Source: Alkalimarinus sediminis
GTDB taxonomy: Bacteria > Pseudomonadota > Gammaproteobacteria > Pseudomonadales > Oleiphilaceae
Length of the DNA: 64,000 nucleotides
Direction: 5' to 3'
NCBI RefSeq assembly: GCF_026427595.1
Contig: NZ_CP101527.1
Location: 2,761,501-2,825,500, forward strand
Shown here: in pieces, positions 14,316-20,018 of the stretch
Layout of the letters: every line of letters starts with the position of its first letter
How positions within the stretch are numbered: position 1 is the stretch's first letter
Made by a program: the position numbers and the translations under genes
The notes under the pieces: model-generated
Database searches by the model: none
What the model saw: the letters and a program-made list of their open reading frames with translations, nothing else
What the model was told of the DNA's origin: nothing

Positions 14316-15572
14316 CTACTGACGAATATGACCATCACCAAATACGACGTATTTTTGGGAGGTCAAACCATCAAGCCCAACCGGTCCACGCGCATGAATT
14401 TTATCCGTAGAGATACCGATTTCTGCGCCCAGACCATACTCAAAACCATCAGCAAATCGGGTAGACGCATTAATCATAACCGAGCTTGAGTCAACCGCCG
14501 TAATAAACGTTCGGCCCCGAGTATAGTTCTCAGTGATAATTGAGTCTGTATGGTGGGAGCCATACTTATTGATATGCGCTATAGCCTCTTCCATATCTGC
14601 AACAATTTTAACGGATAATATAGGCGCTAAATATTCAGTCGACCAGTCATCTTCTGAAGCTGGGTTGATATCGGTCAGAATGCATCTTGTGGCTTCACAG
14701 CCTCTTAACTCAACGCCCTCTTGACGATACTTTTCTGCTAATAGAGGCAAAATTGAAGCCGCAACAGGTTCATCAACTAACAATGTTTCCATCGTGTTAC
14801 AGGTACCATAACGATGGGTTTTAGCGTTAAAGGCGACATTCACTGCTTTTTCATGGTCAGCATCACGATCAATAAAGACGTGACAAATACCATCAAGGTG
14901 CTTAATAACCGTCACTTTAGCATCTCTACTTACACGCTCGATAAGCCCTTTACCACCACGAGGTACAATTACATCAACATATTCAGGCATGGTAATAAGC
15001 TCACCTACCGCCGCTCGGTCTGTGGTTTTAACAACCTGTACCGCATCTTCTGGCAGACCTGCTTGAGACAACCCTTGGCTAATACATACTGCAACCGCCT
15101 GATTAGAGTGGATCGCCTCTGACCCACCACGCAAAATAGTGGCATTGCCAGATTTAAGGCAAAGGCTGGCGGCCTCTACCGTTACGTTAGGGCGAGATTC
15201 ATAGATAATTCCCACAACCCCCAAAGGCACACGCATTTTGCCTACTTGAATACCAGAAGGCATAAACTTCATATCGTCAATAATGCCAACAGGGTCTGGA
15301 AGGGCCGCAACTTGTTTTAGCCCTTCAATCATTGTGTCTATACGAGCAGGCGTTAGCTCAAGACGGTCAAGCATGGCAGAATCCAGGCCGTTAGCCCGAC
15401 CATTTTCCAAGTCTAGCTCGTTAGCCTGAGCCAATTTATCTCGTGCGTTATCCAACGCCTCAGCCATCGCTAATAGCGCACGATTTTTCGCTTCAGTACT
15501 CGCCTGAGCAATTTTCACTGATGCTTCGCGAGCCTTTTCGCCCACTTCCACCATGTATGCTTTTACATCCAT
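14316..15572 (-). CDS. proA: Gamma-glutamyl phosphate reductase
   Basis: ProA performs the NADPH-dependent reduction of gamma-glutamyl phosphate to glutamate semialdehyde in proline synthesis. It has the aldehyde-dehydrogenase fold, with catalytic Cys258 in [13 protein letters not shown], the [13 protein letters not shown]-type N-terminal block (around 122-134) and the VPRGGKGLI loop. At 418 residues it is normal. It is the first gene of the long minus-strand series running to rlpA and faces the GGDEF-like gene divergently across 202 nt. proB is not in the window. Confidence 0.97.
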
Positions 15573-15774
15573 CGCCTGTTCTCAATCTATAAAACTGCTA
15601 CATTAAACAATACCAAATGAAAATTAAGACCTTAGACACAGTCTAAAGACAACAATCATTTATACGATACGCCAAAAGAGGTTATTATAACCTTCTGAAC
15701 CAATGACACCAACGTTGAATTAAGGAACACTCCCAGAAGACCTTAATTGATTAAGGATAATAACAAAGACTAAT

Positions 15775-16830
15775 ATGCCTCAGACTAGCTTAAGCACTAT
15801 CATGCGCACCCGCTCTTACCAATGGGCGGCCGCTATCACAGCACTATTGGCCTTAACAGGGTTGCTCACCGGAAAGCTCGAGGGAGCCATTATTGCCGCT
15901 GTTTTTTCAGTTCTTCTTTTTATGAACAGCCTCTTCGAAAAGCATCGACCGCAAGAAAAAGAGCAACAGAGAAAACTTCGTCGCAGCCCTTGGACCCATG
16001 TTACAACACTATTTTTGGCGTCAGTGACGTTATTGAGTGCACTTTATAGCGAGTTTTCAGCAAGTTCATGGAGTTTTATCCTCCCTATGCTGCTGTTTTT
16101 CTTCTACCCGTTAAAAACCGCCGTCATAGCGGTGGCGGTTTATAGCCTCTGCCTACTCATCATTGTTACGCAACTGAGTGAATCGGTAGAAAAACTTGCG
16201 TTACTGATCAACTACCTACTTTGCCTGAGCTTAACCGCTGGCTTTGTTTATCTCAGAGAGGTTAAAGACCAGCAACTCAAACCACTCAGGCGCACCGATA
16301 ATCTAACTCAGGCTTCAATCAAAGAACGGCTTAACGATGATTTAGCAAAAGAGATCCAACGCAGCGAACGAGAGGGCACAGAGTTAACCGTTATGGCTCT
16401 AGCCATTGACGAACGAGGCTTTAATCAAGTGGATGAAGCTGATCATGACGTACTTCTGAGCAAATTGGGGCACCTATTACATGAGAATCTTAGGGCTTTT
16501 GATAGCTATTACCGCTGGAAAGATCACGAATTCTTGATCGTATTCCCCTACACCAACACCCAAGACGGGATGAAGACCGCTGAAAAGCTAAGATTAATCG
16601 CCAAAGACTCCCTGAGCGACAGTAAACGTCCTATTACCGTTAGCATCGGCACCGCTAGCCTCAATGTTGGTGACAGTGCAGAGTCTATGTTAAACAAATC
16701 ATTGTCGGCACTAAAGCAGGCTCAAAAAAGAGGCCATAACCGTACTCGCTCCTATGTAGACTCAGATGCGTCTGAAAATTCAGCGACTCAATCAGCACCT
16801 ACGAGCGCAGCGAGTGATAGCGACCATTAA
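15775..16830 (+). CDS. Membrane protein with degenerate GGDEF domain and intact I-site
   Basis: The protein has 351 residues. The first 160 hold about six hydrophobic segments with no recognised sensor fold. Residues 173-335 align to a diguanylate cyclase domain, but the active-site GGDEF reads KDHEF (249-253), so cyclase activity is very unlikely. The inhibitory c-di-GMP site RxxD is intact as RAFD (240-243), exactly five residues before that motif. The SIGTA strand and a terminal KRGHNRTRSY match normal domains. This suggests a c-di-GMP receptor. A low-complexity Ser/Ala tail follows. The next gene has the same architecture, so the two probably arose by duplication. Confidence 0.85.
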   Translation: MPQTSLSTIMRTRSYQWAAAITALLALTGLLTGKLEGAIIAAVFSVLLFMNSLFEKHRPQEKEQQRKLRRSPWTHVTTLFLASVTLLSALYSEFSASSWSFILPMLLFFFYPLKTAVIAVAVYSLCLLIIVTQLSESVEKLALLINYLLCLSLTAGFVYLREVKDQQLKPLRRTDNLTQASIKERLNDDLAKEIQRSEREGTELTVMALAIDERGFNQVDEADHDVLLSKLGHLLHENLRAFDSYYRWKDHEFLIVFPYTNTQDGMKTAEKLRLIAKDSLSDSKRPITVSIGTASLNVGDSAESMLNKSLSALKQAQKRGHNRTRSYVDSDASENSATQSAPTSAASDSDH

Positions 16831-16924
16831 CGTTTATAAACTAAACGAGTATGATTCAGTAACCGTTAGTAGACCGATACCGATTAAAGAATAAAAGAAT
16901 AAAAGAATATAAGGCGCGCAAAGG

Positions 16925-17908
16925 ATGACCGACTTCCAACTCAAGAACATGACTCGAGCCACATCTTACGGCTTAACGGCATTATTTATGTTCTTTCTGG
17001 CAATTCAAAATTACCGCTATGGATACTACGACTTGGTTTACACTGCCACGCTACTCATGCCGTTACTGGGGTTTGGCATTGCATATACCTACGCACAACG
17101 CTATTTTGAAATACAAGATTATGCTCATGTTGTATTGTTAGCGGTGATGGCCGTTTTAATCACCACCAATATTTCTGAAACCTCCTCTAATGCGACGCTC
17201 TGGCTCTATCCTATCGGGCTTTTAAGCTATCTTGTTCTTCCATTTCGCGCATCTAATATTTTTAATGGCGCAATACTTTTCTGTTTGACATTTTATATAG
17301 GCTTGCAGCAAGGGCTATATAGTGGACTCTTGTTTTTTACCAGCTACCTGTTTGTGAGCGGTATTGCAGGCATCTTTGCTTACCTCCATCACCATAAAAA
17401 CCGCAAACTTATCGAGCTCTCGCTACATGATCCACTGACTGGTGCTTACAATATGAAGCACCTTGATGACACTCTCACTAAAGAGATTAGCCGCTCACAT
17501 GTGACTGGCAATACACTGTCATTAATTGCTTTAAGAGTCGACTATTTTGACCAATTTACCGACGTTCATGGCAACAACGCAGCTAAAGAACTTACTGTAG
17601 AGCTATCGAAGGTGCTGGGAGGTATGATCCGAGCAGGAGATAGCCACTATTACAGTGAAGAGAGCTTATTTTATCTACTGCTACCCAACACCCCTCAAGA
17701 GGGCATGCTCATTATGACAGAGCGGGTTCGCAGAACCGTCGAAGACACTAAATGGCAGACGATTGGCACGATGACCGTAAGCTTAGGGTGCACTACATCA
17801 ACTCAAAAACCCGCTACGGCAAAAAGTCTTAGAAACGAAGTGCACTGCGCATTAAAAGATGCCGAGAGCAACGGACATAATAGAGTAAGTCTTTTCAATC
17901 AACCATGA
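16925..17908 (+). CDS. Second membrane protein with degenerate GGDEF domain and intact I-site
   Basis: The 327 residues begin with about six transmembrane segments (13-153). A GGDEF-type domain follows from HDPLTGAYN (169-176), which is the normal domain entry. The signature is EESLF (245-249) instead of GGDEF, while the I-site RAGD (236-239) sits exactly five residues upstream as in active cyclases. Loss of catalysis with retention of the c-di-GMP site points to a receptor role. The C-terminal SLGCT and GHNRVSLF elements are preserved. The gene ends in ATGA, overlapping the start of the DedA-PAP2 gene by 4 nt, so the two are translationally coupled. Confidence 0.85.
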   Translation: MTDFQLKNMTRATSYGLTALFMFFLAIQNYRYGYYDLVYTATLLMPLLGFGIAYTYAQRYFEIQDYAHVVLLAVMAVLITTNISETSSNATLWLYPIGLLSYLVLPFRASNIFNGAILFCLTFYIGLQQGLYSGLLFFTSYLFVSGIAGIFAYLHHHKNRKLIELSLHDPLTGAYNMKHLDDTLTKEISRSHVTGNTLSLIALRVDYFDQFTDVHGNNAAKELTVELSKVLGGMIRAGDSHYYSEESLFYLLLPNTPQEGMLIMTERVRRTVEDTKWQTIGTMTVSLGCTTSTQKPATAKSLRNEVHCALKDAESNGHNRVSLFNQP

Positions 17909-19359
17909 ACGCATCAGATATCCAGCCCCTTATCGAAGGGCTTCAGGCTCATCAGGGGTGGGTGGCATTTGCCATTTTTATTGTTTCCTTCGTTGAATCT
18001 TTGGCAATCGCTGGAGTTATCGTACCTGGAGTGATGCTGTTATTTATGGTGGCGGCTGTCGCAGGGGGCGGCGCCCTGTCGTTAGAAGCCGCTTTGATTT
18101 GCGCATTCGCTGGCGCCGTATTAGGTGATGGCATCAGCTTTTTTATTGGCCGTTATTTTAAAGCATCAATCGCTCAAGTGTGGCCGGTAAGTCGCTATCC
18201 TAAATTGCTACATAACGGGCAAACATTTTTCGAGAAGCATGGCGGTAAAAGCGTACTTATTGGCCGTTTTGTTGGGCCTGTTCGCCCTATTCTCCCGCTG
18301 ATTGCTGGGATGCTAGATATGTCGCCCAAGCGGTTTCTACTATTTAACGTTGTCTCTGCTATTGGCTGGGCACCGGTTTATATTCTACCCGGGTATCTGG
18401 TGGGCGCATCGGTATCGCTAGACATTGAACTCCCTCCTCACTTTTACCCAGTGCTACTTACTGCTCTAGGGATACTATCGGTCACCTATCTATTATTTGT
18501 CCGCCTTCAATGGGGGCTGCACCCTCAAAGTGATAGCTACAATTACATTAAACAAGTGCTGATGCGCTACGATGTTAGTCAGAAACTCTGGACTGGGTTA
18601 TCCAACAGACGAGTTGCTGGAGGCGAGTTTCCGCTCCCATCTCTTATCTTAGCACTTGCCACGTTAACACTATTTATACTATTGGCCCAGGCTGTGAGCT
18701 ACACGCAATGGTTTGAGTCCTTCAATCAGCAGGCATCGGATTTTTTTGTTTTACTGAGAAACCCTTTTTATGACCCTGCAGTTGTCATCATCACCATGAT
18801 TGGAGATCCGAAGTTGCTTTATATTTCGGTTCCCATTTTTGTGTCGCTGCTGTTTTTTAGAGGCTATTACGCCGCAGCCATCCACATAGCTGTAGCGGGT
18901 ATCGCAACTTCATTAGTCACTCACGGCTTAAAGGACTACTTCGCCATAGCGAGGCCTGATTTAGTCGTAAGCGCGCCGTTATCAGCCGCCTTCCCTAGTG
19001 GACACACTAGCGGCGCAGTTTTCTTTTTCGGCTTATTGGCGGCATTTATTGCTCAAGAAATGGAGCAAAAAAAGCGTTGGGTGATATATAGCTTGTTTAG
19101 CGTTCCAATGTTACTCATCGGACTTAGCCGACTTTATCTAGGTGTCCACTGGGCAAGCGATGTATTAGGCGGGATGTTGCTAGGCTTGTGTATCTGCGCA
19201 ATCACACGGGTTAGTTATAGCCGTTATGACCGTCAGGCCATTAGTGTCGATATATTTACGCTCCTAGCCGTAGCTCTTTGGCTCGTAGCGGTAACGGTTT
19301 ATGTGTGGACCGGGCTTCCAGAGGCCATCGCCCGCTATCAAATGATCCCCGCACCATAA
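17905..19359 (+). CDS. DedA-PAP2 fusion: putative lipid-phosphate flippase/phosphatase
   Basis: The 484-residue membrane protein joins two domains. Residues 1-200 are DedA/SNARE-associated, with ESLAIAGVIVPG and the signature GRFVGPVRPILPLIAGML (120-137). Residues 245-440 are a type 2 phosphatidic-acid phosphatase with all three motifs: KxxxxxxRP (343-351), PSGH (364-367) and SRxxxxxHxxxD (408-419). DedA proteins include undecaprenyl-phosphate translocases, and PAP2 enzymes include undecaprenyl-pyrophosphate phosphatases, so dephosphorylation and recycling of a polyprenyl or phospholipid phosphate is plausible but unproven. The start overlaps the preceding degenerate-GGDEF gene by 4 nt, which suggests its activity or level is tied to that protein. 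Confidence 0.9.
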   Translation: MNASDIQPLIEGLQAHQGWVAFAIFIVSFVESLAIAGVIVPGVMLLFMVAAVAGGGALSLEAALICAFAGAVLGDGISFFIGRYFKASIAQVWPVSRYPKLLHNGQTFFEKHGGKSVLIGRFVGPVRPILPLIAGMLDMSPKRFLLFNVVSAIGWAPVYILPGYLVGASVSLDIELPPHFYPVLLTALGILSVTYLLFVRLQWGLHPQSDSYNYIKQVLMRYDVSQKLWTGLSNRRVAGGEFPLPSLILALATLTLFILLAQAVSYTQWFESFNQQASDFFVLLRNPFYDPAVVIITMIGDPKLLYISVPIFVSLLFFRGYYAAAIHIAVAGIATSLVTHGLKDYFAIARPDLVVSAPLSAAFPSGHTSGAVFFFGLLAAFIAQEMEQKKRWVIYSLFSVPMLLIGLSRLYLGVHWASDVLGGMLLGLCICAITRVSYSRYDRQAISVDIFTLLAVALWLVAVTVYVWTGLPEAIARYQMIPAP

Positions 19360-19442
19360 ATAGAGAACCCTTTGATCTCGGCAAAACCAGCCCCAACAAT
19401 AACAGCCCAGTTAGTCAACACCCAACCATAGGTCGAGCTGGC

Positions 19443-20018
19443 TTATTGCTCCATTAGCGATAGGAAATACTCTATTTGCTTTAAGCGCTCTAATGGATCT
19501 GTCAACTCAAGTAGAAATTGCTTCTCTTCTTTCGACAGAGGCAACAACTCGACTAGCCGCCAACCAACCTGGCGACCATCTTCATAATCAACACTCATAT
19601 TGAGCGCCTGTATTGCGGGGTGCCTTTCTAACTGCTCAAGCAACGTCGCTAATTCCAGATGTTCATCTGGTAGTGGCACATACTCCTCTTCGATTAAGTG
19701 CTCAATACGACCACTGTAGAGCCCATCAGCACCCTTTGTAGATTCGGTCAACAAAACTTTGGAAGTACCTTCAATGGTTATCCCCAACAGGCCGTTTTCT
19801 AGCTTGCGGAAGTCAACCAAACGAACATAGGTACCAACCCCATAAAACTCGCACTCACCTGCAACCTCATCCCCCTCTTTAATCAGAACCACTACAAACC
19901 CACGGTCTGATTTCATGCAGTCAGACAACATGTCTAAATACCGCGGTTCAAATAGCTGCAAGGGTATTCTGCCCATCGGGCACAATACTGAATTCAAAGG
20001 AAATAGAGGCGTTTTCAT
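19443..20018 (-). CDS. Stand-alone Lon substrate-binding-domain protein
   Basis: The 191 residues correspond to the N-terminal domain of Lon protease (PUA-like): FPLNSVLCPMGRIPLQLFEPRY (start) and GTYVRLVDFRKLENG are typical. No AAA+ or Ser-Lys protease domain follows, so it is not a protease by itself. Single-domain proteins of this family are common in proteobacteria and of unknown function. Its start overlaps the stop of the thioesterase gene by one base (TAATG), so the pair is coupled. Confidence 0.92.
   Translation of the reverse strand: MKTPLFPLNSVLCPMGRIPLQLFEPRYLDMLSDCMKSDRGFVVVLIKEGDEVAGECEFYGVGTYVRLVDFRKLENGLLGITIEGTSKVLLTESTKGADGLYSGRIEHLIEEEYVPLPDEHLELATLLEQLERHPAIQALNMSVDYEDGRQVGWRLVELLPLSKEEKQFLLELTDPLERLKQIEYFLSLMEQ

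Follow-up and report, generated by a model that had tools for sequence, protein, structure and literature searches.

A conserved pair of degenerate-GGDEF membrane proteins with a predicted cyclic di-GMP site beside a DedA-PAP2 gene in Alkalimarinus sediminis

Receptors that bind cyclic di-GMP (c-di-GMP) at the inhibitory site (I-site) of a degenerate GGDEF domain are already known, and two of them, the membrane-bound PssE (Lmo0531) of Listeria monocytogenes and PelD of Pseudomonas aeruginosa and Bacillus cereus, control exopolysaccharide synthesis. Here we describe a related arrangement in a 64,000-nucleotide (nt) stretch of the Alkalimarinus sediminis genome (contig NZ_CP101527.1, positions 2,761,501 to 2,825,500 of the forward strand; hereafter the window), where two consecutive genes for degenerate-GGDEF membrane proteins, P1 and P2, precede P3, a gene for a fusion of DedA and PAP2 domains. 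PssE resembles P1 and P2 in having a degenerate signature (DKDDA) with RxxD five residues upstream, binds c-di-GMP with a dissociation constant of 0.79 uM and two per protein, and is likewise encoded in one operon with the machinery that it controls (PMC4125290). The degenerate GGDEF domain of PelD binds c-di-GMP through RxxD and a third arginine (PMC7112168), R402 in P. aeruginosa, which is the presumed counterpart of P2 R267. In PleD, the I-site is built from R359, D362 and R390 of one molecule and R313 of the neighboring molecule (PMC7288161), and all four residues have counterparts at equal spacing in P2.

PssE and PelD are thus precedents in which a degenerate GGDEF domain with RxxD binds c-di-GMP and acts on co-encoded machinery, and they support reading P1 and P2 as a receptor pair. 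There are also differences. PssE is a single receptor with exopolysaccharide synthesis as its output, whereas P1 and P2 would be two tandem receptors with a DedA or DedA-PAP2 protein as the putative output. PelD has a GAF domain and serves Pel polysaccharide output (PMC7112168), whereas P1 and P2 gave no GAF match at E values up to 1. PleD is an active cyclase, and our alignment shows its GGEEF, whereas P1 and P2 lack the signature. The reading that we favor, by a slight margin, is that P1 and P2 are an I-site c-di-GMP receptor pair, most likely controlling the adjoining DedA(-PAP2) protein. The features on which the argument depends are as follows.

15775..16830, + strand: P1, degenerate-GGDEF membrane protein of 351 amino acids (aa); predicted model with a predicted local distance difference test score (pLDDT) of 78.9
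16294..16743, + strand: P1 GGDEF-fold domain, aa 174-323; PF00990 at 58 bits, best structural match Z 22.2
16360..16362, + strand: P1 R196, equivalent of PleD R313; R in 78/79 P1 orthologues
16492..16503, + strand: P1 RAFD (R240, D243), I-site RxxD; R and D in 71/79
16519..16533, + strand: P1 KDHEF in place of GG(D/E)EF; canonical motif in 0/79 orthologues
16925..17908, + strand: P2, degenerate-GGDEF membrane protein of 327 aa; predicted model with pLDDT 81.2
17423..17884, + strand: P2 GGDEF-fold domain, aa 167-320; PF00990 at 71.9 bits, match to PleD 2v0n with Z 23.3
17492..17494, + strand: P2 R190, equivalent of PleD R313; R in 80/80, 46 residues before R236 as in PleD
17630..17641, + strand: P2 RAGD (R236, D239), I-site RxxD; R and D in 80/80
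17657..17671, + strand: P2 EESLF in place of GG(D/E)EF; canonical motif in 0/80 orthologues
17723..17725, + strand: P2 R267, equivalent of PleD R390; R in 78/80, K in 2/80
17905..17908, + strand: ATGA overlap of 4 nt between P2 stop (TGA 17906-17908) and P3 start (ATG 17905-17907)
17905..19359, + strand: P3, DedA-PAP2 fusion of 484 aa; PF09335 at 73.8 bits and PF01569 at 70.5 bits, both above cut-off
18046..18396, + strand: P3 DedA/VTT domain, with GRFVGPVR at aa 120-127 (Pfam and motif scan)
18880..19218, + strand: P3 PAP2 domain, with KX6RP at aa 343, PSGH at aa 364 and SRX5HX3D at aa 408 (Pfam and motif scan)

An initial annotation of this DNA had proposed that both proteins lost the catalytic motif and kept RxxD five residues upstream, and the sequence bears this out: P1 reads RAFD-SYYRW-KDHEF and P2 reads RAGD-SHYYS-EESLF (RxxD, five residues, degenerate signature). 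The GG(D/E)EF signature of active diguanylate cyclases is absent from all 159 aligned P1 and P2 proteins. Profile alignment of P2 with PleD gave identical spacings between the site residues, 46/3/31 (the PleD chain as printed in the alignment is numbered one lower). The equivalents of PleD R313, R359 and D362, namely R190, R236 and D239, are invariant in 80/80 P2 orthologues, while R267 is kept in 78 and replaced by K in the two sequences of family f7. Signature positions 1 to 4 of P2 rank 197 to 291 of 327 in conservation, within the less conserved half, and position 5, a phenylalanine, ranks 16, as expected of a core residue. The P2 alignment covers four families of one order, with identity to the window's P2 falling to about 20%; orthologues inside one family share kinship, and the conserved counts are not numbers of independent events. 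We removed one P1 cut by a contig end (L043) before conservation was counted. A partial P2 (L195) and near-duplicates were likewise left out of alignments A3 and A4, which take in 25/48 related P2 and 29/48 related P1 proteins besides the window's own. From the residues retained, c-di-GMP binding is strongly implied as a prediction.

The other GGDEF domains of the genome, which has 62 GGDEF matches in 4.2 Mb, served as a control. The control set took in the weakest 41 of the other 60 matches, in 40 regions, and 19/40 regions lacked the canonical signature. RxxD occurred at the right spacing in 16/21 canonical versus 5/19 degenerate controls (Fisher p 0.004), the complete set of four (counting K as well as R at the last position) in 7/21 and 2/19, and an R at the R313 equivalent in 7/21 and 4/19. 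The GGDEF fold as such therefore does not bring the complete site with it, and among the dead GGDEF domains of this genome such a site is unusual. These counts also bear on the proposal that RxxD is kept for folding or for a ligand other than c-di-GMP (GTP, pGpG, ppGpp or another dinucleotide). Solved PleD complexes holding ppGpp or pppGpp in addition to c-di-GMP are among the structural matches and lend this proposal something, but we find it improbable: 14/19 degenerate controls do without RxxD at this spacing, so RxxD is not needed for the GGDEF fold, and P2 keeps the full c-di-GMP site at PleD spacing. Separately, a response-regulator-like protein (L257, 5951-6928, - strand) has a degenerate GGDEF (SESQF) with RPLD intact and is a further candidate dead-GGDEF receptor; it adjoins a gene that we take to resemble yajQ. 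Another protein (L256, 4975-5973, + strand), beside a gene presumably resembling dnaE, combines a degenerate GGDEF (SDKRI) with RNSD and all four I-site residues.

P1 has a partial site. Among 79 orthologues, R199 is present in 79, R196 in 78 and RxxD in 71, and the sole P1 lacking R196 (L268) comes from an f38 locus without a DedA match. RxxD is gone, through D to E, from all eight P1 proteins of family f36 (L103, L107 to L112 and L269); these retain R196 and R199, and the P2 proteins of the same family keep RxxD. Family f36 thereby offers a natural experiment for telling which of the two subunits binds c-di-GMP. Its pattern, found in one lineage, would fit a P1 arginine that serves the P2 site across an interface. 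Because the R390 equivalent is not kept, we do not class P1 by itself, as judged from its sequence, as a full I-site receptor. The initial annotation also claimed selection for ligand binding in both proteins and named missing RxxD conservation in orthologues as evidence against it; RxxD is in fact kept (80/80 P2, 71/79 P1), and the claim holds strongly for P2, with its four-residue site, and more weakly for P1, so the motif observation is stronger for P2 and weaker for P1 than was first claimed.

The R313 equivalent, which acts across a GGDEF pair in PleD (PMC7288161), is retained in both P1 and P2. It could therefore be proposed that the two proteins, with no c-di-GMP sensing of their own, form dimers with active cyclases, whose feedback inhibition they would set by means of the retained I-site, and the 62 GGDEF matches in the genome offer many possible partners. 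Such a role would leave the tight pairing of P1 with P2, and of both with DedA genes, unexplained, and we consider it very doubtful.

Both proteins belong to the GGDEF family. The Pfam GGDEF model scored 58 bits for P1 and 71.9 bits for P2 against a cut-off of 23.8, and it matched at E <= 0.01 in 30/30 P1 and 26/26 P2 proteins scanned. The predicted P2 model (pLDDT 81.2) matched c-di-GMP-bound PleD (2v0n) with Z 23.3 and a root mean square deviation (rmsd) of 1.9 over 165 residues, and the P1 model (pLDDT 78.9) reached Z 22.2 in its best match to a GGDEF domain. As comparisons of predicted models, these matches indicate the GGDEF fold rather than ligand binding. Nearly all of them fall on the GGDEF domain; the one that takes in the membrane part is ImcA (8wcn), which aligns with P2 residues 1-323 (Z 21.3, rmsd 8.4). 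The GGDEF domain lies in the second half of each protein, and long helices in the first half of each model are taken to be membrane helices. MASE6 (PF20966) scored 23.9 bits on P1, below its cut-off of 27.4, and gave matches at E <= 0.01 in 3/30 P1 and 1/26 P2 proteins scanned.

A tree built from 64 GGDEF domains sets off each of the two proteins on one side of a branch, with support 94/92 for P1 and 95/78 for P2. Because each groups across the four families, both were probably present together in the common ancestor of those families. When the tree is rooted among the other GGDEF domains, the P1 and P2 groups are neighbors, in a tree with long branches whose outside domains come from one genome and whose degenerate controls are only the 5 RxxD-bearing ones of 19. 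The suggestion that the two copies decayed independently is thus unsupported; the neighboring positions are not proof to the contrary, and a single decay followed by tandem duplication would be as good a reading of the sequences.

The P1-P2 pair is widespread in the family of the window's genome. A P2 match at E <= 1e-50 was found in 149/151 family genomes (the window's included), the two without being G038 (68% complete) and G110. We fetched 60 family loci from 60 genomes, and P1 followed by P2 is present in 60/60 (in L043, P1 is cut by the contig end). P3 comes next in 55/60, proA lies on the other side in 54/60 and a LON-like gene occurs in 49/60; all five genes are present in 39/60, with proA divergent and the LON-like gene convergent. 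P1 and P2 overlap in 55/60 loci, by exactly 4 nt in 32, while the gap in the window is 94 nt. P2 and P3 overlap in 34/55 loci with P3 and lie within 100 nt in 47/55. For both gene pairs the start nearest to the homologous one was taken, a choice that favors short gaps. Named records include many Marinobacter species, with P3 in 46/48 named loci that have P1 and P2; the two lacking it, titled Vreelandella utahensis, presumably belong to genus g9 and are already among the family counts.

At the level of the order, 293 genomes were sampled, the window's among them, with 7 candidates scored per genome, and 32 gave a P2 orthologue at E <= 7.4e-48, distributed as 13 in family f1, 2 in f7, 8 in f36 and 9 in f38. 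The next matches run from 1.0e-42 downward, the first being the window's own P1, and we regard the remainder as P1 or as other proteins with a GGDEF domain. In a class sample of 321 genomes, which shares at least 3 genomes with the order sample besides the window's, only the window's own genome reached E 1e-45. The plasmid collection gave no P2 match at E 1e-30.

The identity of P3 as a DedA-PAP2 protein stands, with PF09335 (VTT) and PF01569 (PAP2) both above cut-off, as does its reported 4-nt overlap with P2 (17905-17908). The DedA motif GRFxGPxR, with its two arginines, is present in the window's P3 and in 53/55 family P3 proteins. The PAP2 motifs are likewise present in the window's P3 and, among family P3 proteins, in 54/55 for KX6RP, 52/55 for PSGH (as PS[GA]H) and 53/55 for SRX5HX3D. 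One P3 (L076), called as a 34-aa fragment, fails all four motif counts; P3 matches there in two overlapping pieces, as if frameshifted in the genome or the assembly.

A DedA gene follows P2 in 29/32 of the order genomes with P2. In families f1, f7 and f36 it is a P3-type fusion (23/23), and in f38, where part of the loci are closely related (L265 to L267), it is a stand-alone DedA gene of about 195 aa in 6/9 loci, once directly after P2 and five times behind an inserted reverse gene. Because f38 carries stand-alone DedA, the common neighbor of P2 is DedA rather than PAP2. As an aside, the reverse-strand gene, of about 280-330 aa, follows P2 in 8/9 f38 loci (L260 to L268 except L261), with DedA without PAP2 after it in five, and resembles one that L128 has between proA and P3. 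Operon structure and synteny in the four families thus uphold the proposed tie to DedA.

The tie has exceptions on both sides, and these are where an alternative target for the receptor pair has to be weighed. If P1 and P2 acted on something else, the DedA-PAP2 gene would be a stable neighbor inherited with the proA region and not a regulated partner. In favor of this, P1 and P2 persist with RxxD intact in five family loci of genera g9 and g13 that have lost P3, 3/9 f38 loci have no DedA match, and several other families have P3 homologues near proA without P1-P2. We nevertheless regard it as rather unlikely: a DedA gene follows P2 in most order genomes that have it (29/32), genes overlap in most family loci, and P1-P2-P3 stay together in five loci (L044, L046, L049, L050 and L052) whose retrieved sequence showed no proA.

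The evidence that weighs against a receptor pair acting on DedA can be drawn together here. P3 is missing from 5/60 family loci that hold P1-P2, DedA was not seen in 3/9 f38 loci, and 31/40 P3-homologue loci outside the family have no adjoining P1-P2. The position shared beside proA may be inherited rather than functional, and contact of P1 or P2 with P3 is a proposal only. In P1, the R390 position is variable across the 79 sequences (K271 in the window), and 8/8 f36 proteins lack RxxD.

These exceptions have details of their own. In the g9 and g13 loci (L060, L064, L070, L082 and L083), the DedA-PAP2 gene is absent behind P1-P2, which points to a role of the pair independent of P3 in cis; of six g9/g13 genomes searched for DedA and PAP2, two (68% and 88% complete) gave no match, and the other four gave only short ones away from this locus. 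The 40 P3-homologue loci come from 39 genomes, and nine of them have P1-P2 between proA and P3 (L091, L093, L103 and L107 to L112). The 31 without the pair include some cut by contig ends, four that match the DedA half only (L114, L117, L118 and L130), and a second P3 copy (L122) in a genome with P1-P2 elsewhere. Since tblastn missed most f36 P1 and P2 proteins, the absence of P1-P2 outside the family rests on the open frames of the loci listed and on the P2 profile, with no match at E 1e-45 elsewhere. The initial annotation had named DedA-PAP2 genes found consistently without these partners as evidence against the link, and such evidence is present in part: 31/40 loci outside the family lack P1-P2, and 5/60 family loci have P1-P2 without P3. 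A strict rule that DedA-PAP2 always accompanies P1-P2, or the reverse, is rejected by the loci lacking one or the other; the DedA link is real in this order and obligatory in neither direction.

The closest described counterpart of P3 is in Pseudomonas. Two f20 loci (L126 and L128), taken from gene order to be Pseudomonas, have a P3 homologue 33-34% identical to P3 near proA, with no adjoining P1-P2, and the gene before it is one that we take to be a DNA glycosylase, as in the PA4010-PA4011 operon of P. aeruginosa. PA4011 has DedA and PAP2 domains, as P3 has (PMC12893004, PMC7916210), and from architecture and gene order we infer that the two are orthologous. The operon is under PhoP regulation in P. 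aeruginosa (PMC7916210). Deletion of PA4011 lets fewer colistin-resistant mutants emerge, its overexpression does not rescue loss of the undecaprenyl phosphate (C55-P) flippase PA4029, and its authors consider a role in C55-P flip-back improbable (PMC12893004). In the DedA family at large, the domain stands alone in 93%, and fusions to rhodanese and PAP2 occur (PMC10127716). Because PA4011 did not behave as a C55-P flippase, undecaprenyl-phosphate recycling as the output of P3 is, by analogy, weakened to one option only; possible lipids are C55-P, undecaprenyl pyrophosphate (C55-PP), phosphatidic acid and phosphatidylglycerol phosphate. The idea of a c-di-GMP-controlled lipid-carrier system thus gains from the DedA coupling and loses in its undecaprenyl-phosphate form.

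The lost catalytic motif, the kept site residues, the operon structure and the synteny are direct results, and a mechanism covering ligand binding, a dimer, control of P3 and the lipid can be proposed from them. P1 and P2 would be an inner-membrane c-di-GMP receptor pair, descended from GGDEF enzymes and no longer capable of synthesis, with c-di-GMP bound at the former inhibitory site. P2, with its complete four-residue site, would be the main binder, and P1 would lend R196, the equivalent of the PleD R313 that comes from the adjacent GGDEF domain, together with a second partial site in most lineages. The likely switch would be an asymmetric dimer of P1 and P2 that a dimer of c-di-GMP bridges, and its bound state would alter the DedA or DedA-PAP2 protein encoded on the same transcript. 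For that protein the prediction is transport of a phosphorylated lipid and, in the versions with PAP2, dephosphorylation of a lipid. In this full form, with a two-subunit switch (RxxD and R267 from P2, R196 of P1 across the interface) gating a DedA-family lipid transporter, the proposal is tentative and on the unlikely side.

P1, P2 and P3 form a co-directional trio, with divergent proA on one side and a convergent LON-like gene on the other. We take other neighbors, from recognition of their sequences, to be nadD, rsfS, rlmH and a penicillin-binding protein gene, and the name proA has the same basis; presumably there are also thioesterase, potassium-channel and HDOD genes, named like the LON-like gene from sequence only. 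Promoter and terminator scans gave sites no more numerous than in shuffled sequence, and Rfam gave nothing at gathering score across 15400-19600.

In the literature collection searched, no paper brought together DedA, PAP2 and c-di-GMP, and none MASE6 and GGDEF. A DedA(-PAP2) protein as the output of an I-site receptor would thus be new among that literature. With a signal and named residues, a conserved receptor pair in the operon offers a handle on how DedA proteins are controlled and on what DedA-PAP2 fusions do, the role of PA4011 being "elusive" in the words of its authors (PMC12893004). If the two-subunit switch is true, c-di-GMP would directly control the traffic of a phosphorylated lipid or lipid carrier in the inner membrane. 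The three-gene operon conserved in Marinobacter and its relatives suggests that c-di-GMP and the handling of lipids are connected in a new way.

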